64,000 nt of DNA. It comes from Paraburkholderia phytofirmans OLGA172 (GTDB taxonomy: Bacteria > Pseudomonadota > Gammaproteobacteria > Burkholderiales > Burkholderiaceae). Under the pieces are notes generated by a model. The model saw only the letters and a program-made list of their open reading frames with translations, did not search any database and was not told where the DNA came from. The position numbers and the translations under genes are program-made. The DNA is taken from assembly GCF_001634365.1 (NCBI RefSeq), contig NZ_CP014578.1, positions 2,232,001 to 2,296,000 on the forward strand, in the 5' to 3' direction. This document shows positions 22,681 through 49,370 of the stretch, piece after piece. Within the stretch, counting starts at the first letter, position 1, and each line of letters begins with the position of its first letter.

Positions 22681-23535
22681 ATGTTGAACTACCCTGCCGC
22701 CTATCAATCCACCAAGGGTTCCGCACTCGACGTCGACAAGGCGTTCTATCAACGCGTCGCCTCACAGCACGACACCCGTACGCTGATCGAATCGATCGTC
22801 GTGCCGATCCGCTCGGGTCAGGCGTGGACCGTGGAAGCCGGCCAGATATTTCGCATCGTGACGATCGAAGGTCCGCAGGTGGCCGACCTGAATATCTGGA
22901 GCCTGCACAACCCGCGCGAGCGTATGTGGGCCGCGCGCACGCGCCAGTTGCAACAGGCGCACGTGAGCACGTTCGACCGCCTGTGGTCGACGCTGCCGTT
23001 CCTGCGTCCGATGGTGACGATCACGGACGACAGTCTCGCCGACTACGGCGTCGACGAGCATGGCGGCCGCGTTCACGATCTGCTCGGTACGCGGTGCGAT
23101 CCCTATGTGAACCGGATGCTGACCGGTGAGGATTTCCATTTTCACTGCCACTCCAACCTCACACGCGCGATTGCTCCGTACGGATTGACCGAATACGACG
23201 TGCACGACGTGCTCAACGTGTTCCAGTGCACCGGCCTGAATCTGGAAGACAAATATTTTATGAAAGCATGCCCGGCAAAGAAGGGCGACTACCTCGAATT
23301 CTTTGCCGAAATCGACTTGCTGTGCGCGCTGTCGACCTGTCCGGGCGGCGATCTCTCGGTGCCGATGTGGGGGCCAAACGCGCGTGATCCGCTGGAGGTG
23401 TGCCGGCCACTCGGCATCGAGATTTACCGGCTGGCGCCGCAAATGCTGGATGGATGGGCGCCGCCATCCGTCGCTGCGTACAAGGGGCAACATGGAATGC
23501 TGCTGCAGCAGCCGAAATGGAAATGCGGTTGTTGA
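22681..23535 (+). CDS. DUF1989 / urea carboxylase-associated family protein
   Basis: A 284-residue protein of the DUF1989 family. Visible family features are [18 protein letters not shown], the metal-type segment [10 protein letters not shown], and VFQCTGLNL. Family members occur beside urea carboxylase genes, but none is present here, so the substrate cannot be assigned. An AAGGAGC site precedes the ATG. It is followed by a LysR remnant on the other strand and then an SDR gene. Confidence 0.8.
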
Positions 23536-24588: not shown

Positions 24589-24898
24589 AGCAACACGATA
24601 TTTCTAATGAGCCAGAACCGGACATTTCTATAAAGCTACTACAATCTAAAATGTTGATTCTTGGCACCTATGGCGTGGTGTTGCGTTGGTTTTGGTTTTT
24701 CATATTTTGTTATATTTCAACGGGTAAGGCGACCGACTTATCCACAGGATATCCACTTTTTCAGGGGTTTCGTGTTGCGTGACCGGAGCACGGGCATTTG
24801 TTGCGTCAATGCTCATCCGAGAACGCAACAGGGTGAGGCGCGGCGACGTGATGCCGCCAGAGTCAGTGTTGCGTTCCCGCCGGTCCCTTGCTTCCGAT
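24589..24898. other. Intergenic spacer, AT-rich
   Basis: About 310 bp between convergent genes. The first 130 bp are AT-rich relative to the neighbours and mark the junction between the metabolic region and the accessory region. No gene or terminator was recognised. Confidence 0.4.
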
Positions 24899-25399
24899 CT
24901 AGGGCCGGCTTTTCGGTTTCACACCCAGTTCCCACAGTATGTCGATGTTCCTGAGATACGTAGCGACGTTCTCGGCCGAGCTGTGGATGATCGAATGTTC
25001 GTGGCCGTCAGCGCTGTCGACTTTCGCCGACCATGGGTCTTCCAGACTCTGGCAGATGTCGTTGATATCGTCGTGATACTGCTCCAGGGTTTCCGGGTCC
25101 CAGCTCCGCACAACATCAGGGGCCAGCAGCACCGAGAGCGTACCTTTCCGCTCGCCGATATACCGTACCGGCGCGAGCAAGCCACTGATGTAAAGCACCA
25201 TAATCGCGTCGATCACGCGATCGTCATGATCCTCATCCCAGATGATGGCGAAGTCGAGGAACGCGCAACGTTCGAGCCGGTTCATGAACTCGTTGTGCCA
25301 GACCGGTGCCCGCAGAACAGAGTAATGGGTTCCCCGGCCGAGATTGCCCACGGGGCGCGTTTCATCGTGCAGGGTCTGGAAGAAGGGGCAGTAGGACAT
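24899..25399 (-). CDS. Unknown protein downstream of RES toxin-like gene
   Basis: A 166-residue acidic protein (MSYCPFFQTLHDETRPVGN...). The ATG at 25399 follows an AAAGGAG site; the frame is open for 23 more codons upstream. It has no signal peptide and no family I recognise. It lies 95 bp downstream of the RES-domain gene on the same strand and is probably co-transcribed, so it is a candidate antitoxin, immunity or accessory protein. It is not Xre-like, unlike the usual RES partner. Confidence 0.6.
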   Translation of the reverse strand: MSYCPFFQTLHDETRPVGNLGRGTHYSVLRAPVWHNEFMNRLERCAFLDFAIIWDEDHDDRVIDAIMVLYISGLLAPVRYIGERKGTLSVLLAPDVVRSWDPETLEQYHDDINDICQSLEDPWSAKVDSADGHEHSIIHSSAENVATYLRNIDILWELGVKPKSRP

Positions 25400-25494
25400 G
25401 TAACACTCCTTTCGGGAGAGAAGCGGCTTCCGCCGCGAAGCTCGGCCATTTCGTAGCCGAGGCATCATCGATACCGTAACAACGGAGGGCCTCG

Positions 25495-26559
25495 CTATTC
25501 GTCCTCGAAGTCGACGTAGGCGACGTCGATCTCCCGAATTTCCACGAGCCTTGATGCTCCTATCGTGACCAGCTCGGGGTCGAACAGAACGATGTTCGAG
25601 CCGCCAGGCGCCATGGCACTTGGGTACCGAATGCCATCATATAGGCCACTTTTCCGGATGCGCTCGACCAGTTTCTGGCAGGGGAGGTACTCGTGCTCGT
25701 CGTCTGTACGACGCAATGGTCGCGACAGTTCCTCCCCAAACGCTCGAAGCAGGTGCTCCAGTTCCAACTCGTATCGAGGAACATCATCGGCAAACGGGTT
25801 CGATGGGCGCACGGGTTTGTTCAGATCGACCAATCGAAGGCTTCGGACAGCGTGGACCTCGGCAACCGAAACCAGTAGGCCGCGCGCGGGCCGAACCTCG
25901 GCAATCGCTGTCGGTTCTTGATCGGCGACGTAGAGCACAACTTGACGTAACCGGTTTGCTCGCCCTGGCTTCGCTTTGCCTGCCGGCGGGGCACCGATGC
26001 CAACGCCAGCGTGGGGTTCAATAGTCCCGCCAATTTGCGTAAAGCCGAGGCGCGCTCGATACAGGATGGCTCCAGGGAGGACGTCGGCTTCTTGTCGGCC
26101 CAGTTCTTCGTCGAACAGCATCGGCATACGAGGTTTTCTACGTGGGTGCTCTTTGACCGCCGCACAGTACTCGTTCCATTCATCGAGCATGGTGGGACCA
26201 GTCCACGATCGACGATACAGCTCGTGCGCCCGAACTGGCGACTCGCCGCTGTCGTCGTCCCAGCCCGTTGCCAGAATGTCTTCGAGCAGGCCCGCTGCTC
26301 CATCAGAGCAATACAGGCCATCCTCGAACACTTCGTAATCCCACTGGATGGCATAGATGAGCATCTCGCCGCTCGCGTCATCGCTGGGAGCATACAACTG
26401 CATCAGATTCCTGAACGGCTCGTAGAGAACGTCGATATCGATAACCTTTACGCCGCTGGCCCCGCAGTAGTCGCAAGCGCCAATGCCGTTGCTTCGATCG
26501 CGGGCATATTCGCGCACCCATTCATGCGCGAAGCATTCCGGGCAACACTTTTTCGCCAT
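25495..26559 (-). CDS. RES-domain protein with N-terminal zinc ribbon
   Basis: A 354-residue protein. The N-terminus has a zinc-ribbon pattern (CCPEC near residue 6 and CDYCG near residue 30), followed by a helical region, then a C-terminal RES domain from about residue 160. RES signs are LYRARLG, GRANRLRQVVLYVAD, PTAIAEVRP and NIVLFDPELV. RES toxins degrade NAD+ (ParT/MbcT type). The long zinc-ribbon form matches the subgroup with an extra N-terminal HEPN/RES-associated domain rather than the short Xre-RES toxins. No Xre antitoxin gene is adjacent; a gene of unknown function follows. Confidence 0.8.
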   Translation of the reverse strand: MAKKCCPECFAHEWVREYARDRSNGIGACDYCGASGVKVIDIDVLYEPFRNLMQLYAPSDDASGEMLIYAIQWDYEVFEDGLYCSDGAAGLLEDILATGWDDDSGESPVRAHELYRRSWTGPTMLDEWNEYCAAVKEHPRRKPRMPMLFDEELGRQEADVLPGAILYRARLGFTQIGGTIEPHAGVGIGAPPAGKAKPGRANRLRQVVLYVADQEPTAIAEVRPARGLLVSVAEVHAVRSLRLVDLNKPVRPSNPFADDVPRYELELEHLLRAFGEELSRPLRRTDDEHEYLPCQKLVERIRKSGLYDGIRYPSAMAPGGSNIVLFDPELVTIGASRLVEIREIDVAYVDFEDE

Positions 26560-26580
26560 CACAATGTCGCATCCTCACCT

Positions 26581-26618
26581 GTAGCGACTTGCATTTGAAA
26601 CGGGCGTGCTTGCGTTCC
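26581..26618 (+). repeat. Dispersed repeat, copy 2
   Basis: Reads GTAGCGACTTGCATTTGAAA and onward, matching copy 1 at 2577 and pairing as an inverted repeat with copy 3 at 27240-27273. The two copies bracket the small periplasmic-protein gene. Confidence 0.7.
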
Positions 26619-26714
26619 ATTGTCGCCTGCTCACATTATCTGCAACCTGCACAGGAGGGCGTTGGCGTTGGCCCGAAACGGCTAGATTTCGCCACGTCAG
26701 CCACGGAATTGCCT

Positions 26715-27032
26715 TCACTTACAGGATGTCTGCCCTGCATAGGTAACACACGTTGGACCATCATTGTCCTGTTGCCGTGCCCGCTGCGTCTGCTGACCGG
26801 AGTTCCAGGCCCGCATGCTGCTGTCAAAGAGCGTTTCATGAGGCTGCTCTTGCTGCTGCCGCTGCTCCTGCAATAGTTGTCGCGCCATCTCGTTCCCTTG
26901 CTGCTGTTGCAAGAGGGCCTGATCGTGCATCTCATTACGCTGCGTAGCGTACGCGTCGCCCGGTACGTACTGTGCGTGAGCGGTTGATGCGGCAGCTAGT
27001 GCCAGCATGGTCAATGCAATGTACTTGTTCAC
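26715..27032 (-). CDS. Small Gln-rich periplasmic protein
   Basis: A 105-residue exported protein with a signal peptide (YIALTMLALAAASTAHA, cleavage after AHA). The mature part is very rich in Gln/Arg (LLQEQRQQQEQ) and ends with a cysteine pair (TCVTYAGQTSCK) that could form a disulfide. The start is the GTG at 27032, which has GAGGTGA just upstream; the open frame begins earlier. The gene sits alone between inverted copies of a dispersed repeat. Function unknown. Confidence 0.65.
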   Translation of the reverse strand: MNKYIALTMLALAAASTAHAQYVPGDAYATQRNEMHDQALLQQQQGNEMARQLLQEQRQQQEQPHETLFDSSMRAWNSGQQTQRARQQDNDGPTCVTYAGQTSCK

Positions 27033-27239
27033 GATCGTCACCTCGCGCCCGCGTAGACAAAGGGGCTCAACTAGCATAGCAGACGGGACTTACGAGGCCA
27101 CATGCGCAGACAGACAGCCGAGTGCATCGAGGAAAGAGGGGTGCCCTCAAGAACGGCTGAATGCAGGCATGGATGCAGATAATCCGAGCACGCGCATTCC
27201 GTCAGTTGCAGTTATTTCGAGCAGGAAACCGCGTCGATT

Positions 27240-27273
27240 GCAAGTACGGCCGGTTTCAAATGCAAGTCGCTAC
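27240..27273 (-). repeat. Dispersed repeat, copy 3 (inverted)
   Basis: The minus strand reads GTAGCGACTTGCATTTGAAA, identical over its first 20 bases to copy 2 at 26581, in opposite orientation. It lies at the edge of the recombinase operon and may mark an element end or a repeat hot spot. Confidence 0.7.
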
Positions 27274-27301
27274 ATCTAGTGCCTGCTATATGGCCCCTCG
27301 C

Positions 27302-27811
27302 TCAACGCCGCTTTCTTCTGCCGTCTGTGGAAGCCGGCTTTGCCCGCATTTCGGACGTCATCGAGGACACTGTCGCGGCAGGAACCGCGCCAAGCTTGTC
27401 GAGTCTATCGCGTGCCTCGCGATACTGCTCATAGAATTTCGCCCACTTGCTGAAGCCACCGAGTTCGCCGACGGCACGCAGCATGGCGAGGTGGGAGGCG
27501 GTAAGCAACTGCACGGTGGCCTCGAGCTCTGCAATCCGGATATCCTTGTCGGCGAGCGAGGTCGCGGTGTCGGAGCCGGAACGCTTTGCGACGCGGCCGC
27601 GCCAGCGCCGGTATTCCGACTGGCGCTGCTGATACTCGGCAAGCAACCTGCTGCGCAATTCGCTGCGGGTAATCGACGATGCCGCCTTGATGGACGGATG
27701 CAGCCGGGCAACGGCGCGCGCCGTGATGTCTCCGTCGTCGGCCAGCAACGTCTCGAGAATCTCGCGCATCTGCTCGTCACCAGCCAATGCCGTTTCAATG
27801 GGCTCAGTCAT
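27302..27811 (-). CDS. Small helical protein, last gene of recombinase operon
   Basis: A 169-residue protein starting at the ATG at 27811, which overlaps the stop of the 774-aa recombinase gene (ATGACTGA). It has an N-terminal helical part (MREILETLLADDGDITARAV) and a central coiled-coil-like segment (DKDIRIAELEATVQLL), then a basic tail. By position, size and coiled coil it resembles the third protein (TnpC type) of Tn554-like transposons, where a small helper accompanies two tyrosine recombinases. That comparison is an inference, not a sequence-search result. Confidence 0.65.
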   Translation of the reverse strand: MTEPIETALAGDEQMREILETLLADDGDITARAVARLHPSIKAASSITRSELRSRLLAEYQQRQSEYRRWRGRVAKRSGSDTATSLADKDIRIAELEATVQLLTASHLAMLRAVGELGGFSKWAKFYEQYREARDRLDKLGAVPAATVSSMTSEMRAKPASTDGRRKRR

Positions 27812-30128
27812 CAAGTACTCCACGTGGTCGGGGCAGTGAGAGGTCGACGCCATCGGGGAAGGGGTGTTCGCCCGGCGGAGTCGCGAGCAGCTTCTGTACG
27901 CCAGCCAGCCGTTTTTCCGCATGCTCTAGCTGGTTTTTCCAGCCGATACTCGTCGAAGGACGAGCTCTGATCGTCTCCAGTGCCTGCTTGAACGTGCCCT
28001 CGAGCCGGATCAGATTCTGCCGATGTTCCGGCAGGTCAGTCGCCGAGAGATGCCGGCAGTCAGCGAAACACTCGAGATGCTTGGGGCAGGGGTCGACTGT
28101 GAACGAGTTCAGGCAGTGCCCGTACGGGGTCGCATGGAATCCGTCCGCCTCGGCGCGCAGGTATTCGTACGCAGCCGCGTCGCCCTCGGTGGCCTGGATA
28201 CGCAGGAAGGCACCGACGATCGGCCCGCTGGCCCTGCCGTCCTTGATGAGCCTGGCTACGGTGCTGGCTTTCTCGCCGAGCATGATCTCAATGTCCTGCG
28301 GAATCTCGATCTGTTCGAGATCCTCAGCCAGGCTGCGATGATCGTACTCGTAGCTCTGGGTGACACTGCGCCGGTTGAAGCGCTTCGAGATGATCGTATC
28401 CGCAACACCTAGGCGGAACAGTTCGGTGTTTTGTAGATGACGCAGCATGTGCGACTCGATCTTCAAGGCCCGGTCTTCATCGGTCTGGCCATATTTTTCG
28501 AACAACGATGGCAGGTTCTTCGCGTCGCCGAGCGCCTGTCCGATGAACGTAGGGTCCGGGCGGTTGACCGCCATGTAGCGCGCCACGTCGCACAGGCCAT
28601 CGTTGCGCTCTTCGGCGAGCGAGCGCTTCGGCTGGAGGAACAGGAACTCCCACGGTTGAACGGACCCAACTGCCAGCGGCAGGGGAGTGAGGTCGGATAC
28701 CTTCGTCGGCGTCGTGAGCCGGATGTGTTCCTCGAGCTCGCCGACGTGCAGATGCGTCGCATGCCATTCCATCCGATCGAGGAGTTTGACCGGCGAGCCG
28801 TCGCCATGGCGGAAGCACAGACTGGTCTCGCCCTCAAGCATCGCTGTTTTCAGGCGATTCCCGAACTGATAGACGGCCATGTCGAGAGTCAGGTCGCCAC
28901 TGCGCCGCCGTTCATGCTGGTATTCGTGCAGTTCAGCAAGGACCGCGGGATCGAAGCCATCCCGATAGCGTTCGATGAACGGTTCCCGTTCAATTTTCAA
29001 CCAGAACGGGTTGCCCATGAGGCGTGTATAGATTTCAATGACGGGCACGACGCTGTCGAGCGAATACCATGGCAGCAGCCGGCCCGTTTCGCATTGCAGC
29101 TTCAACGTCGCACGCAGTGGCTCCGTGATCCGGGCCACGTGGTCGAGTGTCTCTGTCAACAGCGTCCGGAACATCTCGGGCACGGGCTGGGTCTCTTCAC
29201 GCAGCACGCGGCTGTCGGTCTCATCCTCCTGCTGCTTTTCCGCGAAGTGGCGCAGCATCAGGGACGTCGAGATGCCGCCGGATTCGCCGGCTGGCCGTCC
29301 CTTCGAATCCATGTACGTTCGCTCCCGCTTCCAGTCAACCGGCAACAGTGCGACTTCACCTGCACGCATGCCGGTCACGATCAAGGAGCGCATCGCGGCG
29401 AACCGCAGATCGTCCATGAACGTTCTCGGCTTTTCAGTCATCACGATGCGGGTCAGCTCCCAGAACGCCCGACGCTCCGGCAGACGCTCGCCACGCTTGC
29501 GGGCCTCGAGATCCTCGCGAAGCTCTTCCTGCGACCAGGTATGTTTCGCCTTGATCGCACTTTTCATTTTCATGCGCGGAACAGAGAGGGACGAGTACAG
29601 TGGACCGGCGTCGCAGATGTGCTGGGCATCGAGCACTGTCTTGATGATGCCGACCACCAGGTCTCCCAGCTTTCCTGTGGCCTGGATTGCTTTTCCGACA
29701 CGGATCGCCAGACGCAGATCGTCGACGGTCAGTTGCCAGGGGTCCTTTTCCACGCACGTTGCAACCACCCGTAGCGGCCGCGCGATGTTTTGCATCACGT
29801 GTCCGGTAGTGTTCCGCTTGAACAGCAACTGTTCGGCAACGGCCGCCTTGATCAGATCCTGCCACGCTGACGATAGCGGGCGTCGGGGCAGCGGCGTCAG
29901 GCCCCGCTCTGCGCGCTCCGTGTTTACGATCGCCAGTGCCTTCGCATCAGGTCCCAGGTCTCGCAGGTAATAGGTCGGCGGCGGTACGTCGCCGGCAACG
30001 ACGGTGAGGTTCCATCCGACGCCGTCGCATGCGGCGCCTGTTTCGTCGAGAGGCATGCGCCATGACAGGCCTTTCTCATGGGCCAGCGTTTTGCCCAGAT
30101 CGATGAACGCGGAGTAGTGTGGATTCAT
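27804..30128 (-). CDS. Large tyrosine recombinase-like protein (774 aa)
   Basis: Third gene of the operon. A tyrosine recombinase catalytic core is spread over a long insertion: first arginine in VTGMRAGEVALL, then HMLRH (HxxR box), and a candidate nucleophile in TQSYEYDH. About 250 residues separate the first Arg from the HxxR box, far more than usual. A cysteine-rich stretch near the C-terminus (HCLN...CPKHLECFADC) may bind zinc. Four-base ATGA overlap with the preceding recombinase implies translational coupling. Confidence 0.72.
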   Translation of the reverse strand: MNPHYSAFIDLGKTLAHEKGLSWRMPLDETGAACDGVGWNLTVVAGDVPPPTYYLRDLGPDAKALAIVNTERAERGLTPLPRRPLSSAWQDLIKAAVAEQLLFKRNTTGHVMQNIARPLRVVATCVEKDPWQLTVDDLRLAIRVGKAIQATGKLGDLVVGIIKTVLDAQHICDAGPLYSSLSVPRMKMKSAIKAKHTWSQEELREDLEARKRGERLPERRAFWELTRIVMTEKPRTFMDDLRFAAMRSLIVTGMRAGEVALLPVDWKRERTYMDSKGRPAGESGGISTSLMLRHFAEKQQEDETDSRVLREETQPVPEMFRTLLTETLDHVARITEPLRATLKLQCETGRLLPWYSLDSVVPVIEIYTRLMGNPFWLKIEREPFIERYRDGFDPAVLAELHEYQHERRRSGDLTLDMAVYQFGNRLKTAMLEGETSLCFRHGDGSPVKLLDRMEWHATHLHVGELEEHIRLTTPTKVSDLTPLPLAVGSVQPWEFLFLQPKRSLAEERNDGLCDVARYMAVNRPDPTFIGQALGDAKNLPSLFEKYGQTDEDRALKIESHMLRHLQNTELFRLGVADTIISKRFNRRSVTQSYEYDHRSLAEDLEQIEIPQDIEIMLGEKASTVARLIKDGRASGPIVGAFLRIQATEGDAAAYEYLRAEADGFHATPYGHCLNSFTVDPCPKHLECFADCRHLSATDLPEHRQNLIRLEGTFKQALETIRARPSTSIGWKNQLEHAEKRLAGVQKLLATPPGEHPFPDGVDLSLPRPRGVLDD

Positions 30129-31663
30129 CGGTTGTCGGCTTCCAGTTCCTCGATGACTGTCTGTATCTCGGCGATCGTGCGCTGCAGTTGCAGATAGGCA
30201 GGCGACCTGGTGTCGCCGCGGGAACTCTGGTCGAAGAAGATCACCACTTCGCGCATCTCGGCCAGCACGCGCTCATGCATCGTCTTGTCGTGCAGGGGCA
30301 TGAACTTCCTGCATCCGTAGCACGACGTGACCGGGTTGTAGGGGCAAGCGGGCTGACCAGATTTGCAGCCGCCGATACCGGCGATCGGAATTCCGTGAGG
30401 CACGCCGGCAATCTGTTGCTCCCCTTTGAGTTGGGTGAGCTCTTCCGGGGAGATGAACCGGTCGTGCGCAATCTTCGCCACACGCCGGTATATGTCCGAC
30501 GCACCGAGCGCCCGGTTCACCCGCTCCGCGTGGGTGGCCGATGTCGCGTAGTAAACCAGCCCGGTCTGCACATGCGAATGGCCCATGAATTCAGCGAGCT
30601 CCTCATGACTGGCACCGGCGTCAACGAGTCGCTGCGCCGCGGTATGACGAAGGTCCATAGCGCAAGCATCGTCGCCGATCAGGATTTCCACGCGGCGGGC
30701 AATGCGAGATCCGGCTTCATGATTGGATTTGACGCCGAAGACGCGATCATTGGCATCGCGCCCCTGAGAGTCTGCATACGCAACCAGCGCGATGAACAAT
30801 ATCCCCCATTCCTGTTTCACACGACGGACCATCGGTCTCTTTCGAAGCTTCCCCTGTTGCTTGACCATGAGAAACGTGAGATGCACGGTCGGCTCGCCAC
30901 TGTGTTCCAGATCCCATATCCGTACGTCACGCATCGTCAGCATCGCGATCTGAATCGGACGCATGGCAAACTGGTAGGAACAGAGCACCATCGCCGCATC
31001 GCAAAGTGCCTCGTATGGAAGACTTGACCAGCCGCTTGTCCTAATGAGATTCGACGTTTCATCCAGATAGCGCACAATCGCGGCTTCCTCGTCAACGGAC
31101 AGAAACACATCGCCTGATCGCACACGGGCATACTTGTCTGTTGCGGGGCCGGGCAGGCAAGCGCTGACATAGGCCAGATATGACTCGGACCAGCCATACA
31201 GGCGATGCCGGCATAGCAAACGCAGCACGGCCTTGACGAAACGATAGGCGTGAACGACTAACTGGCGGCCGCGCAGCGTCATCCATATCGTTGATATGCG
31301 GGTTGGTCCGGCTTCGACGATGCGTTCGACATCATGAACATCAAGATGCATTGCTGCGTTCAGAACATTGAAGCAGGTCGAGATATGCAGGTCTTCACCC
31401 AGCAGGAAGACCAGCAGATGCTTCTGGAGGGTGCCGTACGAAGAAGGGTACCGACTAAGATCAAGCCGGAACAGTCGACCATTGATGTGAAGCCCGAGGA
31501 TATCGGCCTGGCGGACTTCGGGCACGGAGCGCAGCGTGTCGTCGAAGTCGTCGTAGTAGCGCACGACCGGCGGCAGTTCTGGCAACGACGACACCATGCT
31601 TTCAAGCACCGATGGCTCGATTCCCAGGTGAGTCTGGGACGACGGAGCTTTTTGCATGTTCAA
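30125..31663 (-). CDS. Tyrosine recombinase (512 aa)
   Basis: Second gene of the operon. The catalytic domain shows Arg in YQFAMRPIQIA, DLRHTAAQ (HxxR box with Asp in place of the first His), MGHSH, and the nucleophile in GLVYYATS. After the catalytic core is a ~120-residue extension with a cysteine cluster (CKSGQPACPY, CYGCRKFMPL) likely to bind zinc, then a helical tail. The start overlaps the previous gene by ATGA. The extension distinguishes it from simple phage integrases. Confidence 0.85.
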   Translation of the reverse strand: MNMQKAPSSQTHLGIEPSVLESMVSSLPELPPVVRYYDDFDDTLRSVPEVRQADILGLHINGRLFRLDLSRYPSSYGTLQKHLLVFLLGEDLHISTCFNVLNAAMHLDVHDVERIVEAGPTRISTIWMTLRGRQLVVHAYRFVKAVLRLLCRHRLYGWSESYLAYVSACLPGPATDKYARVRSGDVFLSVDEEAAIVRYLDETSNLIRTSGWSSLPYEALCDAAMVLCSYQFAMRPIQIAMLTMRDVRIWDLEHSGEPTVHLTFLMVKQQGKLRKRPMVRRVKQEWGILFIALVAYADSQGRDANDRVFGVKSNHEAGSRIARRVEILIGDDACAMDLRHTAAQRLVDAGASHEELAEFMGHSHVQTGLVYYATSATHAERVNRALGASDIYRRVAKIAHDRFISPEELTQLKGEQQIAGVPHGIPIAGIGGCKSGQPACPYNPVTSCYGCRKFMPLHDKTMHERVLAEMREVVIFFDQSSRGDTRSPAYLQLQRTIAEIQTVIEELEADNR

Positions 31664-32877
31664 CGGCCCTGTGGAAGCGCGCGCAACACAGCCACACGAT
31701 CATCGAATTCGTCGTTCCATACGCTCGCGAGCCGGTTTTCAAAGACGGCCCTGGCATAGCGCGAAGGCATGTCTGATTCTTTTGACCAGCCGAAGAACGT
31801 GCGCATCTTCTGTAGTGCTTCGTCCATCGCGTCGCCTCGCTCCAGTAACTGGTGAAGCCTCAGCACAGCGCAGGTGTGCCGGAGGTCGTGACAGGTAACC
31901 GATTTTTTCCCGGTGCGATCGTGCAGTTCCTGCAGCACCTCGGCTGGCAATGCCTTCGATATCAACGTAAAGATCTTGGTCAATGACTCTGTGGACAGAG
32001 GACCGCCAGTCTGGGCATTAAGCATGAACGAATGGGAAGGTCGCCCCCGGTAATTGTCGCAATAGGCCTGCACGAGGCGCGCCGTCGCATCGCTTACCGG
32101 TATCTGCCTGATCGAATGAAGCGTCTTGATGCTCGGTTTCGAGTAGCGGCTATCGCCGTCTGCTTCTTCATACCCATTCTGTCGGACGTTCAGCCAGTAC
32201 CGTGTCCGATCAAGCTTGCGGTCATGGCTGCTTTTGATGGCATCCGCGGTCAGCAGCAAGAGTTCGCCCCGGCGCAGTCCCTGATGGAGCATCAGCACGA
32301 ATGCAATGAAGACCCGCCAGCGCGTCTGGGAACGTCGGAACGGATTGGCATCCGACTCCGGATCCAGTATCTGATAGAGGCTTTCGACCACACAGGCAGG
32401 CAGCGATCGAACCATCTCACTTCGGCCGCCTTGCCGTATGTGAAGCTGGCTGTAAAGCGTCGACAGGCGATGGATCCGCGCTTCGATCTGCTGCATTTTC
32501 GCGTCGGCAGATTTCGAAAGCCATGTGACCACCGATGTTACGAAGGTCAGTCCGGTCTGCCACCGATCCTCGTTGCTGCTGGTCGCCGCAGGCTGGTTGC
32601 GCAGGCTGACAAACCACGATTCGAGAATGTCCGCGAGCTGGGCGTCGTCGAGACTGGACAGCGCATCATCGAGCGCATTCGCCCGGAATGACCGATCAGC
32701 GTGTTCATACAGGCTCTCGATGTACCGCAGCCGCATCGTCTGCGTAGACGTCGCCCATTGTGACGCAGCGACGACCAGCCAGACTGAGGCCCAGTATCGA
32801 GGAGCGTGATTGCTGTCAGCCAGCAAGACGCCTCGAAGCGAAAGCGGCACGGCCTCGGCGCTGATCTGAACGAACAT
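31660..32877 (-). CDS. Tyrosine recombinase (405 aa), first gene of the operon
   Basis: Catalytic residues are complete: Arg in QGLRRGELLLL, HDLRHTCAV (HxxR), Trp in FFGWSKES at the His/Trp position, and the nucleophile in SRYARAVFE. The N-terminal ~190 residues would form the core-binding domain. I place the start at the ATG at 32877; the frame opens nine codons earlier. It leads a four-gene overlapping operon of three different recombinases plus a helper. Together they probably mobilise this island. Confidence 0.85.
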   Translation of the reverse strand: MFVQISAEAVPLSLRGVLLADSNHAPRYWASVWLVVAASQWATSTQTMRLRYIESLYEHADRSFRANALDDALSSLDDAQLADILESWFVSLRNQPAATSSNEDRWQTGLTFVTSVVTWLSKSADAKMQQIEARIHRLSTLYSQLHIRQGGRSEMVRSLPACVVESLYQILDPESDANPFRRSQTRWRVFIAFVLMLHQGLRRGELLLLTADAIKSSHDRKLDRTRYWLNVRQNGYEEADGDSRYSKPSIKTLHSIRQIPVSDATARLVQAYCDNYRGRPSHSFMLNAQTGGPLSTESLTKIFTLISKALPAEVLQELHDRTGKKSVTCHDLRHTCAVLRLHQLLERGDAMDEALQKMRTFFGWSKESDMPSRYARAVFENRLASVWNDEFDDRVAVLRALPQGR

Positions 32878-33562
32878 AAAAACCCTGCAACCAGAACACA
32901 ACACCGAAACCTACCATAAGTACATGTAGCCGTTGCGGTATCTAAGGCTTGAACGCTGTCCAACATGCAACACCCTAAAACATACCAACAGTGTTGATAA
33001 TTTATCTTATGTCAAATTACAAACGCAGGAAGCGCCATCCGAGTCCCGCAACAGATTTCCTTCCCCTCGCCGCCTAAACCGCCACGTCCCCTCGGCTACA
33101 CGCTCCGGAGCGATTCCGCACGATTGACGTCGGGCTTCCACGCGTTTGTTATCCTTTTTAGGGATTTTGGCCCGATTCTCGTTGCCGGCTTCATAGTCGT
33201 GGTGAAAATTTTAAGGATATCCACGCGTTTTCCGCCCATTTGGGGTTCATTCCGCAGCATTCTGACCGGAAGATGACTAAGCGCTGGCGACGAGTCCGCG
33301 TCTTTCGCGCCGGATCTGAGACGGCGAGTTGACATAATTTGTATCCCCGTGTCGACAAATGTATGCAGCCCGTCAGACCTATGGCTGTTGACGTCGGCTG
33401 TAAGCCCTTGAGTCAGCTGCGTACGCTGATGCATTCGCGACGTTAGTCTGCTCGGCGTTAGGTTGAATCGGCGTTTCCATTCCGCACGCGCTTATGCGCG
33501 CACAGCTGGTCCCCCCACCAACGGGTTAGGCCTGTCGAAGAAGACTTCTCCAGCAGCGGGCA
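32878..33562. promoter_or_regulatory. Upstream region of the recombinase operon, possible element end
   Basis: About 685 bp without a supported gene. An AT-rich segment at 32915-33020 (with AACAGTGTTGATAATTTATC) is the likely operon promoter. An ORF at 33096-33434 on the minus strand lacks a ribosome site or family. Because the recombinase genes point away from this side, the element's own recombination site could lie here. Confidence 0.4.
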
Positions 33563-35138: not shown

Positions 35139-36392
35139 TCACATTTCCGTCGCTTTCCAGTCTAACTGATGGCGGCTAACGGTTTGACGGTGACGCTCAT
35201 CATCCTCTGCATGCAGATAGATGCTGGTGGTGTTCAATGAAACGTGGCCAAGGTTGTCGCGGATCAGCCTGAGGTCGACTCCGCCGTCGGCCATTCGGGA
35301 ACCCGCTGTGTGGCGCAACCAGTGAGCAGAAGCCCGTTCGAGTTCTGCGGCACTGCCGTGATAGTCTGGTCCCCGGGACCTCAGCCACTTGGCCGTCCCT
35401 TCGAAAATCCCCTTGACTGCATCATGTAACGCAGATCGACTCAGATTTCGCATCTTGCCCCCGCGAGGCACGACGAGCGGCGTTTCCTCTCCATGCCGAG
35501 GCAACTGGGACAGACCGTTCACTGCCCGATAGCGCGATAGCTCGATGATCAGCTCGGGCGAAACCGGCACGATCCGCTCCTTGTCGCCCTTCCCCAGCGT
35601 TACCAGCCACCACTGGTCCTTTCCGTCTGGCGCGAGCCTTCGCATGAACTGTCCCATCTGGCCGCCGGCAACTTCGGAAATCCGCATGCCCTGCAGATAG
35701 AACAGGGTGATCAGCCATCGGCTGCGCGAGTAGTAAGCCTTCTGCAGATCCGTATCCTGCGGGAGCTGCTCAACGAAGCGTTTCACTTCGTCCCACAGCG
35801 AGACCGGAAGATACCGGCTGACACGCGGCGCGGTTCTTTTTCCCCGCTGACGCAGCAGCGCCATCGGGTTGCCACGCAGGTACCCTGCACTCACCAGCCA
35901 CGTGAACATCGCGTTCAGGATGACCAGCGCCTGACGCTGACTCGCTGGCGACAACGGTCCGTTGAACGGCCGCCAGCGCTCGTCGCCGCGTGGATACTTT
36001 CCGCCACTGGCGGACACCCAGCGGCTGGCCGGCCGGGGGTCAACAAGAAACGCCTTGAACATCAGCAGATCCTCGTGCGTGAGCGATGACAGTGGCTTGC
36101 CGAGCTGCACCACGGACCACAGCAGCAGCCGTTCAGCTTCCTTGCGATAGCTGTCGAACGTGGTCTTCGTGTCACCGTGATTCGACAGCCACGCACGGAC
36201 CGCGTCCAGATCGTTGCGTGCGGACAGCTGGGATCCTTCGGCGGGCGCGCGGTTCGTGCCCTCGCGCCCATTCAGGTGCTCCGGGACGACGAGCGATTCC
36301 ACGGGCTGGACGGTGGCGATTGTGGCGCTGGACACGATCGGGGCTCCGTTCTGGGTGTGACGCGACGTTGGTGTGCCGATTGCAACCGGCAC
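35139..36392 (-). CDS. Xer/phage-type tyrosine recombinase
   Basis: A site-specific recombinase of up to 417 residues. Catalytic set: Arg in LQGMRISEVAG, Lys in TLGKGDKERIVPV, HWLRHTAGS, NLGHVSLNTT and nucleophile in TSIYLHAED. The N-terminal SAM-like binding domain is at about residues 60-190. The longest frame begins at a GTG (36392) inside a palindromic operator, so a later GTG or ATG start is likely. It is divergent from a KfrA-like gene across that palindrome, a common plasmid/ICE maintenance layout. Confidence 0.88.
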   Translation of the reverse strand: MPVAIGTPTSRHTQNGAPIVSSATIATVQPVESLVVPEHLNGREGTNRAPAEGSQLSARNDLDAVRAWLSNHGDTKTTFDSYRKEAERLLLWSVVQLGKPLSSLTHEDLLMFKAFLVDPRPASRWVSASGGKYPRGDERWRPFNGPLSPASQRQALVILNAMFTWLVSAGYLRGNPMALLRQRGKRTAPRVSRYLPVSLWDEVKRFVEQLPQDTDLQKAYYSRSRWLITLFYLQGMRISEVAGGQMGQFMRRLAPDGKDQWWLVTLGKGDKERIVPVSPELIIELSRYRAVNGLSQLPRHGEETPLVVPRGGKMRNLSRSALHDAVKGIFEGTAKWLRSRGPDYHGSAAELERASAHWLRHTAGSRMADGGVDLRLIRDNLGHVSLNTTSIYLHAEDDERHRQTVSRHQLDWKATEM

Positions 36393-36646: not shown

Positions 36647-38248
36647 CTAGACGTTTTTTTCGTGCTCCCGCTTGCCCAGCTTCCAGGGTAGCAGCGCCTC
36701 GTAGTCGTCGGCGCTCTTTGCGTAGGGCAGCGCCTTGAACAGATCAGTCAGGTAGCGGTAGATGTCGACGCGATTGGCCTTGCACGACTCAACGAGCGAA
36801 TAGAGGTTGGCACTCGCTTTCGCCCCGCCCACCGTGTCCGCGAAGAGCCAGGAGCGGCGGCCTACCGTGAAGGGTCGGATTGAATTTTCGCAAGGGTTAT
36901 TGTCGATGGGCCACGCTTCGTTCTCGACATAGCGGTTCAGCTTGGGCCACTGCCCGGCCAGGTAATTCAACGCCTTGCCCAGCAAGCCCTTGGGTGCAGT
37001 CGTCTCGAGGTGATGATCCAGTAACGCTTTGATTTGCGCGAGCACCGCGCGGCTATAGCGTCGGCGCAGCCGCGCCCGCCGATGCGGTTTTTCGCTGGCA
37101 CGCGACTCCGCCGCGTACAGCTTGCCAATCAGATGGATGAACTGCGTCGCGGGTTGATGACGGCCACGCGCCTCTTTGGGCAAGACCGCCTCGGCTTCTA
37201 CGAAGTAGCGGCGGCAATGGGCCCAGCATCCTAAATGCACGAGTTCGTTCGCGCTGGCGATCGCGTTATACGGCTCATAGCCATCGGTCATCAGCACGGC
37301 GCCACGGCGCATGCCGACCCACAGGTCCGCTCCCAGCTGTTTGCTGCGCCCGGGCGCATAACTGAACAGCCGCACCGGCGGCCCGCTGCCGTTCATTTGC
37401 GCCCACATGTAACTCTTCGTCTGCGGGGCCCGTCCGGGCTCCTTGAGAACCTGCACCGTGGTCTCGTCGCCAAACACGATCTCGCTGTCCAGCAGATGAT
37501 CACGCATCAGGTTGATGACGGGCTGCACCGCTTCGCCCAGGCGCACCACGCTGGCTGCCAGCGTATTGCGCGAGATATCGCCGCCGAAGCGCCGCAGCAG
37601 TGCAGCGATTCGATACAGCGGCAAGCCGTCCACGAACTTCGAGATGACGAACCACGCCAGCGCCGCTTCAGTGAACAACCCCTTCGGGATGATGCGCGAG
37701 CGCGCCGGCGTGGCCTTCATGCCTTGATCACAGCTCGGGCACGCATACTTCACGCGCTCATGACGGATCACCCGCACCTGCTGCGGAATGATGTCGAGCT
37801 GCTCGCTGACCTCGACGCCGATCTCCACCCGCACGCTGCCGTCGTGCGGGCAGATGCGCTCCTCTTCAGAGAGTTCGTAGCGGATCACCTCGCGCGGCAA
37901 GGCCGGATCGAGCGGCTTGCGTCCGGACTTCTTGCGCCGGTGGCCGGCCACCGGCGTGCTGTCGACTTCGTCTTCCTGAGCCGGGAGCGTCGCCGCCGTC
38001 GGCGCCAGCGCTTCCGCCTCGTTCAGGAACAGATCACGCTGATCCGCGCTGCGTGCCTCGCTCTTCGCCCCGAACAGCCGGCGCTCGAACGCCTTGAGCT
38101 GCTCCTTCAGAAGATCGCGCTCGACCTTCGTTACCCGCAGTTCGCCACGCAACGCGTCGCGTTCAGCAAGCACCGCATCGCGCTCGGCGATGAGCGCGGC
38201 GAGTTCCTCGGCGGTGATCGAAGCGGGTTGAACAGAAGCGCGTGTCAT
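36647..38248 (-). CDS. tnpC: IS66 transposase TnpC
   Basis: A 533-residue DDE transposase. Parts in order: N-terminal coiled coil (LIAERDAVLAERDALRGELR), a zinc-finger region (CPSC), and the catalytic domain with FGDETTVQVL, MTDGYEPYN and ENSIRPFTVGRRSWLF. Start set at the ATG at 38248; the longer frame overlaps tnpB. Apparently full length. Confidence 0.95.
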   Translation of the reverse strand: MTRASVQPASITAEELAALIAERDAVLAERDALRGELRVTKVERDLLKEQLKAFERRLFGAKSEARSADQRDLFLNEAEALAPTAATLPAQEDEVDSTPVAGHRRKKSGRKPLDPALPREVIRYELSEEERICPHDGSVRVEIGVEVSEQLDIIPQQVRVIRHERVKYACPSCDQGMKATPARSRIIPKGLFTEAALAWFVISKFVDGLPLYRIAALLRRFGGDISRNTLAASVVRLGEAVQPVINLMRDHLLDSEIVFGDETTVQVLKEPGRAPQTKSYMWAQMNGSGPPVRLFSYAPGRSKQLGADLWVGMRRGAVLMTDGYEPYNAIASANELVHLGCWAHCRRYFVEAEAVLPKEARGRHQPATQFIHLIGKLYAAESRASEKPHRRARLRRRYSRAVLAQIKALLDHHLETTAPKGLLGKALNYLAGQWPKLNRYVENEAWPIDNNPCENSIRPFTVGRRSWLFADTVGGAKASANLYSLVESCKANRVDIYRYLTDLFKALPYAKSADDYEALLPWKLGKREHEKNV

Positions 38249-38345
38249 GGCGTAACCATAGCGAATCCCGAGGCGCCGTGGGTTTACGTAAATTTGTAAC
38301 GTCGCCGTCCTCTGTCGCGTCTGAGCTACACCCCAGCGAACGCCA

Positions 38346-38696
38346 TCAGCTGACACGGGCATAGTGCCGCGCCGGATGCTTGCGTATCGCCGCCAGGTCG
38401 ATGCCCTCAAGAAGCCAATGAAGTTGCTCTACCGTCAGCTCAAGTACGGCCGCTTCGCGTGGCCATATAAAACGGTCAGCCTCGAGGCGCTTCAACATGA
38501 GCCAGAAGCCGTTGCGCTCCCACATGAGTAACTTGATGCGATCGGCCCGCCGGTTGCGAAACACATAGACGGCCCGGGCGAACGGATCGAGTCCCAGCGC
38601 CTGCTCAACCAGGGCCGACAGACCCGTGATGCTCTTGCGGAAATCCACGGCGTCGCGATGGACGTACACCTTCAGGTCAGCGTCGAGCCGGAACAT
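38346..38696 (-). CDS. tnpB: IS66 accessory protein TnpB
   Basis: A 116-residue IS66 Orf2 protein with the family hallmark segments HRDAVDFRKSITGLSALVE and VYVFRNRRADRIKLLMWERN. It overlaps tnpA by 20 bases and is required with TnpA and TnpC for transposition in this family. Confidence 0.96.
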   Translation of the reverse strand: MFRLDADLKVYVHRDAVDFRKSITGLSALVEQALGLDPFARAVYVFRNRRADRIKLLMWERNGFWLMLKRLEADRFIWPREAAVLELTVEQLHWLLEGIDLAAIRKHPARHYARVS

Positions 38697-40386: not shown

Positions 40387-42354
40387 TCAATTCGATAACC
40401 GTTCCATCGGAACAATCTCATCCGGTTCGAACCACCCGCACTCTTGGATTCTCTGTTGCGCGGCCGTCGGGTCCTTGGCCCAAAGCACCAAGGCGAGGCT
40501 CTCCTCGGCGCGGCTGCACGTCACGTAGAGCAAGCGCAAGGTTCTGTCGATAGTGGTCTCTTTGCTATCCGCCGCGTTATTCAGGTCTGTTTCGCTTAGC
40601 TGGGCACCCCCGAATACCTTGTCATAAGAGATTAGGAAACCACCGGCGTCCTCGTCATCCATGACGACCATGACGTGCTTGAACTCGGACCCCTTGACGA
40701 CTTGGTGCGTCGCCAGATCGGCACCACCCGAGAGATAGCATTGATATCGTTCGACCTCACTCCACTTGCAGGCAAAGAGCGCATGCCAACCTCGCTTTCG
40801 TCGATCCTCCTTCGGCTCACTCGATTTGTTCTTCGGAGCTGCCGGTGGTTCCGAGTTGTCCAAGTACGCTCGAATCAACGGAGCACCGGACTCAAGTAGG
40901 TTGGCGTTGACAATGGTCGCTAAAACTTCGCGCACGGTGGAGCCCTTCTTGGAGCACATCCGCGCAAAGTCGGCGACAGCATGATGCATATTCGCAAGTG
41001 CCGTTCGGCGTTCCCCAGTTTCATCGGGGAGGCGTTCCAACATGCCGTTGCGACGAAGGACGTTCATCGAGGCAAACTCATCTACCGTGTCGTCGTCGCG
41101 GGCGCAATGAGCGTGGTCAATCACTGGGCCAAGGAGCAATCGGGCTACCGCAGGCCCCGTGTTCTCACCGTTGCCTTGCGGGGCGGCGGCATCTTTGTCG
41201 AGGAGCTCCATTGCGATGTAGGCATCGTAGAAGTCGCCCCGTCGCGCCGCCAATTTGTGCTCGAGCGCGAGCACTTTGTAGCTGCGCGAAGCGAGAAGCC
41301 AAGACGGCGAGCCTGTGACGCCGGCCATCAGCTGCGCGCATGCGGCCTCCTTGACGAGCTTCTCTTCTGGGCTGAGGTTCGTATCTCCAACGAAGATTCT
41401 CACTGTCCCGCCTGTCTTCTCTTCACGGGGATGTTGCGCGACGCCCGTCTTCGGTTGCGTTCGCCCTTCGACATCCGCATCCCAGATTTTGTTGATAAGA
41501 TCAACAATGCGTCGCTGGCTGCGGTGGTTCATCTGAAGTGCGGGTTTCGCCCACGCTGCCGGGATCTGCGAGGGCAAATCGTCGTGTCCGTGCCCGTAGA
41601 TCCGCTGTCTGTGATCACCAATCAGACCGAGCGTGATCCTGCCGGGTCGACTATTTGCAAGTTCGAAGAGTGCGTCGAGAACGCTTTTCATCGTGTCCTG
41701 CGATTCGTCGATGAGGATGAGGGGATGTCGATCCTCTAGGATCCGCTGAAGGGTCGGACGATGCTTGATGAGCCACGCGGCTACGTCTAGCACCTGCGTG
41801 TGTTGCAGCGCACCCTGGCCATACGTATTCCGATCAGGGTGATAGATGAACCTCGCAGTCGAAGCAATTTCCTCGATCTTGGCCTCGCGCTCTGCAAATT
41901 TCTCCTTATCTCTATCACTTACGCCCTTGGCCTTGTTTTGGGCTTCTCGTATTGCCTCTTCAAGTTCGGCACGTTCGATGGCAATACGCGCTTCTCGAAT
42001 GTCGTCGTCGAAGCCCGCGATAAGCTCCCAGCAGAATGAATGGATGGTCGACACCGCAGTCAAATAGTTTTCGCCGAGCCGTCCGTTGACCACGGCCGTC
42101 GCATTTTTTGTGTACGTGACGACGCGAACTGATTGACCTCGAGTTCTGAGGCGCAGAGCATACTGGCCGCCGTTGTCATGCGGCACCACGCCCGTGATTC
42201 GTCGAAGCACTTCGACCAGCGTGCGCGTCTTGCCCGAGCCAGCGCCCGCAAAGAGAAAAAAACTACGCGCCGGTACATCCGTAATGTAGCCGCATATCTC
42301 TTGCACGACATTCGCATCGCGATCATTGCCTTGTGGTTGCACAACTGAGCTCAC
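40387..42354 (-). CDS. UvrD-like helicase of a Gabija-type defence pair
   Basis: A 655-residue superfamily 1A helicase. Motifs in order: Walker A FAGAGSGKT (residues about 35-43), Ia VVTYTKNA, II LILIDESQD, III GLIGDHRQRIYG, IV MNHRSQRRIV, V KGSEFKHVMVV and VI YVTCSRAEESL. The start is the GTG at 42354, overlapping the TGA of the nuclease gene by four bases; the annotated frame is open further upstream but inside that gene. Pairing of an OLD-type nuclease with a UvrD helicase is the Gabija (GajA-GajB) antiphage arrangement. This protein is longer than typical GajB (about 500 residues). Confidence 0.82.
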   Translation of the reverse strand: MSSVVQPQGNDRDANVVQEICGYITDVPARSFFLFAGAGSGKTRTLVEVLRRITGVVPHDNGGQYALRLRTRGQSVRVVTYTKNATAVVNGRLGENYLTAVSTIHSFCWELIAGFDDDIREARIAIERAELEEAIREAQNKAKGVSDRDKEKFAEREAKIEEIASTARFIYHPDRNTYGQGALQHTQVLDVAAWLIKHRPTLQRILEDRHPLILIDESQDTMKSVLDALFELANSRPGRITLGLIGDHRQRIYGHGHDDLPSQIPAAWAKPALQMNHRSQRRIVDLINKIWDADVEGRTQPKTGVAQHPREEKTGGTVRIFVGDTNLSPEEKLVKEAACAQLMAGVTGSPSWLLASRSYKVLALEHKLAARRGDFYDAYIAMELLDKDAAAPQGNGENTGPAVARLLLGPVIDHAHCARDDDTVDEFASMNVLRRNGMLERLPDETGERRTALANMHHAVADFARMCSKKGSTVREVLATIVNANLLESGAPLIRAYLDNSEPPAAPKNKSSEPKEDRRKRGWHALFACKWSEVERYQCYLSGGADLATHQVVKGSEFKHVMVVMDDEDAGGFLISYDKVFGGAQLSETDLNNAADSKETTIDRTLRLLYVTCSRAEESLALVLWAKDPTAAQQRIQECGWFEPDEIVPMERLSN

Positions 42355-44636: not shown

Positions 44637-44675
44637 GATGGTCGGTTGGGGTGTTCGCTGCAATTTCAACATGCC

Positions 44676-45758
44676 CTAGTGTTCCGTCCCAGAAATAACT
44701 TTGCATAGCCGGGTCACTTTCTGCAGAATGGAATCGGCTGTCGCGGTCCATACGAACGGCCGCTTGTGCTGGTTGTACTGCTCGGTATAACGCTCGATGC
44801 TGGCGATGAGCTGGCGCACGTTTCTGAATGACCCGCGACGGATCGCCTGCTGCGTAATCAGGCCAAACCAGCGTTCAACCTGATTCAGCCAGCTCGAGTA
44901 GGTTGGCGTGAAGTGCATGTGGTAGCGCGTATGCCTGGCGAGCCACGCCCTGACCCTCGGATGCTTGTGTGTCGCGTAGTTGTCGACGATCAGATGCACA
45001 TCGAGATCGACCGGCACCACCTGGTCAATATGCCTGAGGAACGCCAGGAATTCCTGATGCCGGTGGCGCGGCTTGCATTGAGCAATGACTTCGCCCGTTG
45101 CTGCATTGAGCGCAGCGAACAGGGTTGTGGTGCCATGCCGGACGTAATCATGCGTCACCCCTTCGAGATAGCCCAGCCCCATCGGCAGCATCGGCTGCGT
45201 GCGCTCCAGCGCCTGACATTGGCTCTTCTCGTCGACGCACAGCACCAGGGCGTTGGTGGGCGGGCTCAGGTACAGCCCGACAATATCGCGCACCTTCTCG
45301 ACGAAGAATGAATCGGTAGACAGCTTGAAGCTCTTTGAACGATGGGGCTGTATACCGAACAGCGACAGATACCGGGCCACCGAACTCTTCGAAATCCCTG
45401 TCCGCGCGGCAGCAGAACGCACGCTCCAGTGCGTTGCCCCGTCCGGCTTCTCATGCAACACCCTGGCCAGCAATTCCGCGACCGCCTCGTCGTCATGTGT
45501 GCGCGGTCGGCCTGGGCGAGCTTCATCATGCAGACCCGCAAGCCCCTGAGCGACAAACCGCTTCTTCCAGTGCGTGATCGCCGGTGGCGTCACTTCGCAC
45601 TGCATCGCAATTTCCTTGGTCGTGTGACCGTCAGCGGCCATCAGGACAATCTTTGCCCGACGGACCAGAGAATGAGGCAACGAACGCGAGCGACTCATGG
45701 ACAGCAACTGTTCTCGCTCCAGTTCTGACACCACAACCTCGATCCCCTTGCGTCCCAT
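44676..45758 (-). CDS. IS630-family transposase
   Basis: A 360-residue single-ORF transposase. It has an N-terminal HTH ([18 protein letters not shown]), a second HTH ([18 protein letters not shown]), and the catalytic triad in [17 protein letters not shown] and [13 protein letters not shown]. The stop codon TAG is formed by the duplicated target TA plus the host base beyond the element, so reading-frame closure depends on the insertion site. Confidence 0.95.
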
Positions 45759-48653: not shown

Positions 48654-49370
48654 TTAGGCGTCGTCGTGGTCTGGCATGAAGTCCGCGCTAAACGCCTCCA
48701 ACGCCGCGCGAATGCGTGCTGGGTCGTCGTCGAGATACGACATGACATGGTCAAGTTCCGCGTGACCTAGCAGGGTCTGCACCGTTTCTAGGGATTCACC
48801 CTGCGCTAGAAGACGGTTGGCGAAAGTCCGACGACCAGAATGGGAACTGTAGCCACGCCGCAGGCCTGCCGCACGGTACAGGCCGGTGACGTAGCTCTGA
48901 AGGCTGTCAGCGGCCCAATAACCCACTTGACCGCCCTCGCCGTTTGTGCGCCGCTTCAAACTCAGCTCGTAAGCTGTGCCCTTGTGCGTCAAGATTAGGC
49001 GATTGGACGCAATCAGGCCACGATATGCGCGGTCGTCGAGGGATGTTCCCAACTGCCGACTGATCCGGAGCGCGAGATACCGTTCGAGCGCCGTACGAGT
49101 TTTCTCATGAGTAAGGTACACGCAGCGCTGGCGCGAGCCCTTCGTAATCGCAGCTCGCAGGCTAACTTCAGTTCGAATGGCGCCCGACTGCGCTACCACA
49201 TCGGCAATTTCAACGCGCGCAATTTCTGTGACACGCATGCCACAAGTGATGCCCAGCAGCAAAATGAGTGCGTCTCGCTCTGGGTGTCGGCTTGTTGCTT
49301 CCGTCACACGCAGCAGATGCCGTATCTGCGACGGTCGCAGCACTACGGCATGACTCGTCATAAGTGGCAA
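48654..49370 (-). CDS. Short tyrosine recombinase
   Basis: A 238-residue protein made almost only of the catalytic domain: Arg in GITCGMRVTEIAR, Lys in AITKGSRQR, HSGRRTFANR (HxxR box), LLGHAELDH and the nucleophile in VMSYLDDD. It lacks a separate N-terminal core-binding domain, like small integrases and some resolution recombinases. It closes the accessory block that begins with the three-recombinase operon. Confidence 0.82.
   Translation of the reverse strand: MPLMTSHAVVLRPSQIRHLLRVTEATSRHPERDALILLLGITCGMRVTEIARVEIADVVAQSGAIRTEVSLRAAITKGSRQRCVYLTHEKTRTALERYLALRISRQLGTSLDDRAYRGLIASNRLILTHKGTAYELSLKRRTNGEGGQVGYWAADSLQSYVTGLYRAAGLRRGYSSHSGRRTFANRLLAQGESLETVQTLLGHAELDHVMSYLDDDPARIRAALEAFSADFMPDHDDA

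Follow-up and report, generated by a model that had tools for sequence, protein, structure and literature searches.

A ginABCD element of Paraburkholderia phytofirmans OLGA172 that very likely targets the chromosome dimer-resolution site dif

The window analysed here, a stretch of 64,000 nucleotides from Paraburkholderia phytofirmans OLGA172 (contig NZ_CP014578.1, forward-strand positions 2,232,001 to 2,296,000), contains an operon of four consecutive minus-strand open reading frames, which specify three tyrosine recombinases (405, 512 and 774 aa) and a 169-aa helper. These genes very likely constitute the ginABCD operon of a GInt that targets dif, the chromosome dimer-resolution site. The dif site is conserved, needed by the cell to separate joined chromosomes, and bound by host recombinases. 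GInts, the insertion sequences called dif hunters and the islands called IMEXs are all known already; the new part is dif as the target of a GInt. No link between GInts and dif was found in the literature searched, and the word dif is absent from the GInt papers searched.

As described by Bardaji et al. 2017 (PMC5385486), a GInt combines the ginABCD genes, for three tyrosine recombinases and a small protein, with cargo following ginD and a far end that is short and AT-rich, and its direct repeats are short and imperfect; such elements are also named the Tn6571 family (PMC10121019). The element in the window shares with them the four-gene operon at one end, cargo past ginD, imperfect repeats, a 6-nt exchange segment and a high target specificity. 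It differs from the published GInts in its small size (8.3 kb) and in having gene-less relatives, besides the target and the GinC residues taken up below.

Element ends and the two host copies

A second copy of the element lies on the other large contig of the host (C2:1501262-1509680), where, read in the gin direction, 8353 bp are identical to the copy in the window, which is on contig C1. A single base of the left Xer core (33006) distinguishes the two, and on the right side they also differ at 24652-24647 and beyond. An alignment of 18 gene-less relatives, here called mini-GInts, gives the ends N6-GGTATG ... GTGCCAAGAATCAAC-N6, the same as those of the host element. Since the comparison of the two copies and the mini-GInt alignment agree, we delimit the element as 32986-24653, with a 6-nt exchange segment directly outside each end (Table 1). 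ATCAAC, also considered as an exchange segment, was dropped because the mini-GInt alignment points to the six bases outside it. The left segment, ACTGTT, is the same in both host copies and is taken as the element's, and the right one, ATTTTA in the window and CGGACT at the C2 copy, as the target's. Together with the adjoining bases, these segments form imperfect direct repeats, AATTATCAAC-ACTGTT and AAGAATCAAC-ATTTTA, which are identical at 11 of 16 positions and fall within the 10-17 nt of GInt repeats. Candidate arm sites are GTGTTGC, close to the left end, and its complement GCAACAC, close to the right.

The operon occupies one end of the element and is followed, beyond ginD, by 2.6 kb of cargo. 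One cargo gene specifies a RES-domain protein, and its region is unmatched in the GInts of the genomes G005 and G029; the stretch of the other, a 189-aa protein, recurs in the GInts of G005 (two copies) and G029 at 76-93% DNA identity. The last 108 bases of the element are 58% AT, as against roughly 40-45% in the other cargo, a moderate AT richness of the kind found at the far end of GInts.

The dif site as the probable target

The ginA end of the GInt abuts dif in both host copies, the site reading ATTTGACATAA-GATAAA-TTATCAAC on C1 and GTTGACATAA-TATAAA-TTATCAAC on C2; dif or dif-like sites likewise adjoin the GInts of several relatives. With the element removed, the window site becomes ATTTGACATAA-GATAAA-TTATCAACATT, which by manual count is identical at 25 of 28 positions to ATTTGACATAA-TATCAA-TTATCGACATT, the reverse complement of the Burkholderia mallei chromosome 1 dif listed as AATGTCGATAATTGATATTATGTCAAAT by Carnoy and Roten 2009. 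The insertion point is the outer edge of the XerC arm, and dif is left almost whole: it retains its XerD arm, its Xer core and 8 of the 11 XerC-arm bases, with the last three changing from ATT to ACT. The right-end arm, at the far end, looks like the XerC half of dif: its AAGAATCAAC agrees with AATTATCAAC of that half at 8 of 10 positions.

A genus dif pattern, TTTGACATAA-N6-TTATCGACAT with at most two mismatches, was detected in 64 of 97 genus genomes, as against none for a reversed control, and 57 of these 64 genomes have between one and three matches. A few matches belong to a different repeated sequence with a TTGCA-like core, found also on host contig C3, and others are occupied by GInts. 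The dif core varies among replicons; both GATAAA (C1) and TATAAA (C2) recur at dif sites of other genomes. The GC skew was computed from 20 stretches of 20 kb on each contig. At both copies, the values are mostly positive ahead of the element and negative past it: on C1 it goes from 0.053 at 2.21 Mb to -0.025 at 2.264 Mb and -0.037 at 2.40 Mb, and on C2 from 0.048 at 1.44 Mb to -0.012 at 1.54 Mb. From this change of sign we infer that both copies lie at replication termini.

Comparison with uninterrupted sites, the route to the element ends proposed in a preliminary description of the operon that was made from the sequence alone, succeeded for a relative though not for the insertion in the window. 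The GInt of genome G115 lies between gccgttcgcggaTTTTGCATAA-AAGAAA-TTATCAAC-ATCAGA and ATTTGA-ACGGTCGTGCTTTT, and over the short flanks compared these closely match an uninterrupted site in genome G061, gccgttcgcggaTTTTGCATAA-AAGAAA-TTAGCAAC-ATCTGA-ACGGTCGTGCTTTT. Hence, the six bases at the far end resemble the target's own and the six at the near end belong to the element, which is also the pattern in both host copies. The joined flanks of the G005 insertion (contig C11) gave no syntenic empty site in 144 genomes, and the search returned dif-like sites sharing the right context, one of which pairs with G115. Eight uninterrupted dif-like sites in other genomes (L301-L308) share the right-hand context CGRTCGTGCTTTTT. 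This context starts some 8 bases past the dif-like sites and also follows, on the right, the insertions in G005 and G115 and several of the mini-GInts. A dif site in genome G074 (L197), near a homologue of the window gene at 22681-23535, was set aside as a clean empty site because its orientation is opposite.

The operon and its recombinases

The three recombinase sizes and the gene overlaps of 4, 4 and 8 bases agree with the preliminary description; the first overlap depends on the TTG start of ginB, an in-frame ATG 6 bases inward giving zero overlap. GinA and GinB score above the cut-off for Phage_integrase (PF00589), GinC is sub-threshold (E 0.022), and GinD has no match to this domain in the Pfam search. 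Searches of Pfam and NCBIfam returned no curated family for GinC or GinD, so that the operon is named only as generic integrase, and searches of PDB sequences with GinC and GinD profiles gave nothing significant. The predicted structure of GinC has a fold that matches XerD, XerH and Cre. This model is of moderate quality (mean predicted local distance difference test, pLDDT, 78.8; predicted template modelling score, pTM, 0.50), with a pLDDT below 50 at residues 569-600, which hold the candidate tyrosine. For GinD, a putative coiled-coil protein, place and sequence are conserved in 13 aligned members; this alignment (A6) omits L124, L151 and L157, of which L124 gave a stop-codon error.

The catalytic residues are conserved in all three recombinases, in tallies that skip proteins with internal stops. 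GinA retains R202, H330, R333, W364 and Y374 in 65-66 of 68 alignment rows, and GinB retains R235, R339, H362 and Y371 in 67-72 of 75 rows; the box-II His of GinB is not conserved, being M, T or another residue. GinC keeps R255 in 68 of 76 rows, H560 and R563 in 75 and Y595 in 74, the remaining cells being gaps. Y595, in the low-confidence stretch of the model, would be the nucleophile. The distance from the catalytic Arg (R255) to the HxxR box (H560) is about 304 residues, not the roughly 250 given earlier. The cysteine clusters noted earlier in two of the recombinases, which may bind zinc, are borne out: C433/440/448/451 of GinB are invariant in 7 of 7 aligned proteins, and C672/681/687/691 of GinC in 7 of 7 and 17 of 17. 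The larger GinC alignment (A5) omits L123, L133 and L153, of which L153 gave a stop-codon error.

Table 1. Features of the window, with positions counted from its first base
Feature	Position	Strand	Remarks
GInt element between its two 6-nt exchange segments	24653..32986	minus	8334 bp; identical second copy, 18 mini-GInts, other GInts
Left 6-nt exchange segment	32987..32992	minus	ACTGTT
Right 6-nt exchange segment	24647..24652	minus	ATTTTA
Right-end arm	24653..24667	minus	GTGCCAAGAATCAAC
dif regenerated at the ginA end	32990..33017	minus	ATTTGACATAA (XerD arm) GATAAA (core) TTATCAACACT (XerC arm; last three bases from the GInt segment)
ginA	31660..32877	minus	tyrosine recombinase, 405 aa; PF00589 33.5 bits against a cut-off of 27.1
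ginB	30125..31663	minus	tyrosine recombinase, 512 aa, TTG start, conserved Cys cluster; PF00589 29.2 bits
ginC	27804..30128	minus	large protein of predicted tyrosine-recombinase fold, 774 aa, conserved Cys cluster
ginD	27302..27811	minus	small helper, 169 aa, ATG at 27811
Cargo open reading frame	26715-27077		120 aa; from its own sequence, possibly a small exported protein
Cargo gene, RES-domain protein	25495..26562	minus	355 aa; PF08808 E 1.3e-19; no PADLOC match
Cargo gene	24899..25468	minus	189 aa; no Pfam, NCBIfam or PADLOC match
Tip of IS1202-family (ISNCY) element	24596..24643	minus	48 bp, just past the GInt
Integrase	35139-36392		XerD side of dif
IS66	36647-38410		XerD side of dif
Gabija GajB/GajA	40387-44672		XerD side of dif, outside the GInt
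DDE transposase	44676-45758		XerD side of dif
PDC-S31 candidate	46124-47116		XerD side of dif, outside the GInt
Integrase	48654-49370		XerD side of dif
Cytosine methyltransferase	51451-52797		XerD side of dif, outside the GInt
Group II intron reverse transcriptase	53293-54681		XerD side of dif

A proposed mode of integration

By analogy with other GInts, in which Bardaji et al. 2017 (PMC5385486) report a circular form and a need for all four genes, GinA, GinB, GinC and GinD would together form a circle, in whose joint a 6-nt segment would link the right-end arm GTGCCAAGAATCAAC to the left-end arm GGTATG. One or another of the Gin proteins would read dif, and strands would be swapped over six nucleotides at the XerC arm's outer edge, just outside TTATCAAC, with the right-end arm AAGAATCAAC perhaps imitating AATTATCAAC of the XerC half. 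The six bases of the circle would then land beside dif, and the chromosome's own six would go to the far end—an exchange that would explain the observed junctions. Because the far end is without a XerD arm and an Xer core, the insertion would not be the work of XerCD, and XerCD would be unable to excise the GInt. The dif site at the ginA end probably works still, and the island is probably not excised by Xer, since the XerD arm, the core and most XerC-arm bases stay. Copying would account for the two identical copies in one genome, and so would reinsertion after replication.

Relatives and the breadth of dif targeting

A scan of genome contigs yielded 99 stretches encoding a relative, of which we used the best kept, 79 GinC-encoding loci. 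All four gin genes occur in order and on one strand in 66 of these loci, more than chance would give; in 11 of the remaining 13 a gene went undetected and two have a different order, several being at contig ends. By record title, the loci come mostly from alpha-, beta- and gammaproteobacteria, with a few others. GinC matches were also obtained in 42 plasmid records, and the ginABCD order was seen in all six that were opened (P. koreensis, P. aeruginosa, Caulobacter, Bradyrhizobium, Cupriavidus and P. megapolitana). A locus of S. stutzeri (L165), the species of one GInt prototype, has the same gene order at 32-47% identity.

Upstream sequence could be searched for 62 of the 79 loci, the other 17 having GinA missing or reversed, or fewer than 120 bases upstream. 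The motif ACATAA-N6-TTAT lies within 350 bp upstream of ginA in 24 of the 62, and only 32 such sites occur in all 1,227,401 bases on both strands. In Xanthomonas arboricola (L120), TCTGACATAA-TATACA-TTATGCGA upstream of ginA is near the dif of Xanthomonas campestris given in a published table. Because 38 loci, among them L165, are without the exact motif, dif targeting is a trait of a branch of the GInts and not of all of them.

Several loci deserve separate mention. In rhizobial GInts (L130, L132, L140, L147, L149, L087), a dif-like sequence of the type GCATAA-N6-TTATGG lies about 317-329 bases before ginA in the opposite orientation, a weaker indication than the motif above. The 6.98-Mb contig C1 of genome G101 carries two GInt copies (L069, L070) at two dif sites with cores GATAAA and TATAAA, as if two chromosomes had been fused or misassembled. 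The host itself has a second, distant gin-like pair on opposite strands of C1, near 405066 and 1314189 (L017, L018), with a GinC-like protein at 28% and a GinA-like protein at 32% identity. Other GInts, too, have defence-type genes as neighbours: P. aeruginosa pBJ86 has Qat after ginD (L085, 7259-12232), and AbiE-like genes lie near a Cupriavidus GInt (L088, 283-1954). A Bradyrhizobium plasmid carries two successive GInt starts next to an ISNCY transposase (L087, 688-12298).

Alternative explanations

An island lying in dif, with dif at one of its ends, might have been integrated by the host XerCD with the gin genes as passengers. The known dif islands GGI and LME-1 are described as IMEXs, and the near-complete dif left at the occupied site is a likeness to CTXphi, GGI and Legionella LME-1. 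IMEXs use host Xer, exchange inside the Xer site and are flanked by Xer arms and core; here, in contrast, the right end has neither XerD arm nor core, the junctions change outside the core, in the 6 nt beyond TTATCAAC, and the island encodes three recombinases itself. Their catalytic residues are conserved, and other work has shown that operons of this type carry out the recombination. An IMEX is accordingly improbable. Still less credible is a GInt that targets the tip of an IS1202-family element and meets dif incidentally, even though the window, C2 and G029 copies have such a tip 8-9 bases past their right end. The copies in G005, G101, G105 and G115 are without the tip and have a dif-like site, and dif explains both situations; the IS1202 family are known dif hunters (Harmer et al. 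2023, PMC10132070), which lie at a distance of 5 bp from the XerC arm. We parsed 29 of 30 fetched genus dif loci and found by eye an IS1202-like tip in 16, in 15 of them at exactly 5 bp. These elements resemble the GInt in choosing the XerC side of dif and dif-like sites and are found beside it; they differ in being insertion sequences with their own transposase and a 5-bp duplication, gin genes forming no part of their description.

The preliminary description had instead raised a distinct type of element, with the defence island beside it as its load. In favour of this, GinC and GinD are without a name in the curated families, and defence genes are found within 8-20 kb; the defence island as cargo has to be abandoned, since Gabija, the PDC-S31 candidate and the methyltransferase lie on the other side of dif, outside the ends at 24653 and 32986. 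A new type is likewise contradicted, because the same four-gene order and layout have been published as ginABCD of GInts, an outcome that the preliminary description itself had named as refuting. Comparisons had also been proposed with the gamma-mobile-trio, whose proteins are GmtX, GmtY and GmtZ, and with RIT elements. The latter are described as three recombinases of 315-410 aa with no other genes, which neither the sizes seen here nor the fourth gene fit. The likeness to Tn554 stands in so far as both are recombination operons of mobile elements with a related logic, several tyrosine recombinases and a small auxiliary protein, and a weak GinD-TnpC identity is reported by Bardaji et al. 2017 (PMC5385486); it fails in that Tn554 has two recombinases (TnpA, TnpB) with TnpC, not three. 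The strand-biased circularizing elements (SEs) share this general make-up and a 6-bp footprint (PMC10214605), but have two recombinases, a fold protein and Srap, and that paper's passages on the subject state that they have no BLAST similarity to GInt genes.

A GInt that targets dif is the reading we retain, and several points weigh against it. No movement was observed. The GInt targets described in the published accounts are different, namely an ABC transporter gene or ssb. GinC, described in those papers as without the first Arg, or without the Tyr, here has both positions filled in the expected region. The 38 loci without the exact dif motif include some with a weaker or reversed dif-like sequence and others in which none was recognised, and homology to the prototype GInts rests on architecture and on L165, itself one of the loci without the motif. 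The C2 site is missing from the genus dif list because it has more than two mismatches to the pattern. An E. coli-like dif pattern with 3 mismatches gave 54 matches in the host, both GInt ends among them, as against 71 for the control and, since six scattered host sites outscore both GInt ends, does not by itself single them out. Past the window, one C1 skew sample, at 2.296 Mb, returns to a positive value (0.0137). Finally, no empty site of the window insertion was found, the XerD-side flank being without a useful match in the 97 genomes.

Company at dif

The mini-GInts are about 0.2 kb long, with both GInt ends and no gene, and the 18 aligned copies come from 8 of the 97 genomes. By eye, their left flanks are dif-like in 10 cases, an IS end in 4, the other member of a tandem pair in 2 and unclear in 2. 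They are likely non-autonomous derivatives, comparable to miniature inverted-repeat transposable elements (MITEs). Copies at L269-L294 (G019, G071, G097, G114, G075, G007, G101, G029) reach seven per genome and include two tandem pairs. An IS with a 5-bp duplication lies within the start of an apparent second GInt end in genome G108. Beyond dif, on its XerD side, the window holds the defence genes and further mobile elements listed in Table 1.

Implications for GInts and dif

We consider it probable that this branch of the GInts consists of Xer-independent dif hunters, whose own recombinases use the XerC half-site, and which occupy dif on several replicons, move between chromosomes, keep dimer resolution, and stack with IS1202-family elements and with mini-GInts moved in trans. 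The tyrosine-recombinase islands described at dif, the IMEXs, borrow host enzymes; an island that cuts the edge of the XerC site with enzymes of its own and leaves dif nearly whole would be a different solution. The combination of own enzymes and a preserved dif would explain the occurrence of one element at the same site of two chromosomes. With such a target, the division of target choice and catalysis among the four GInt proteins becomes directly testable, and the mini-GInts may serve as natural 0.2-kb non-autonomous donors. More generally, dif emerges as a shared landing site of unrelated mobile elements, close to defence genes.

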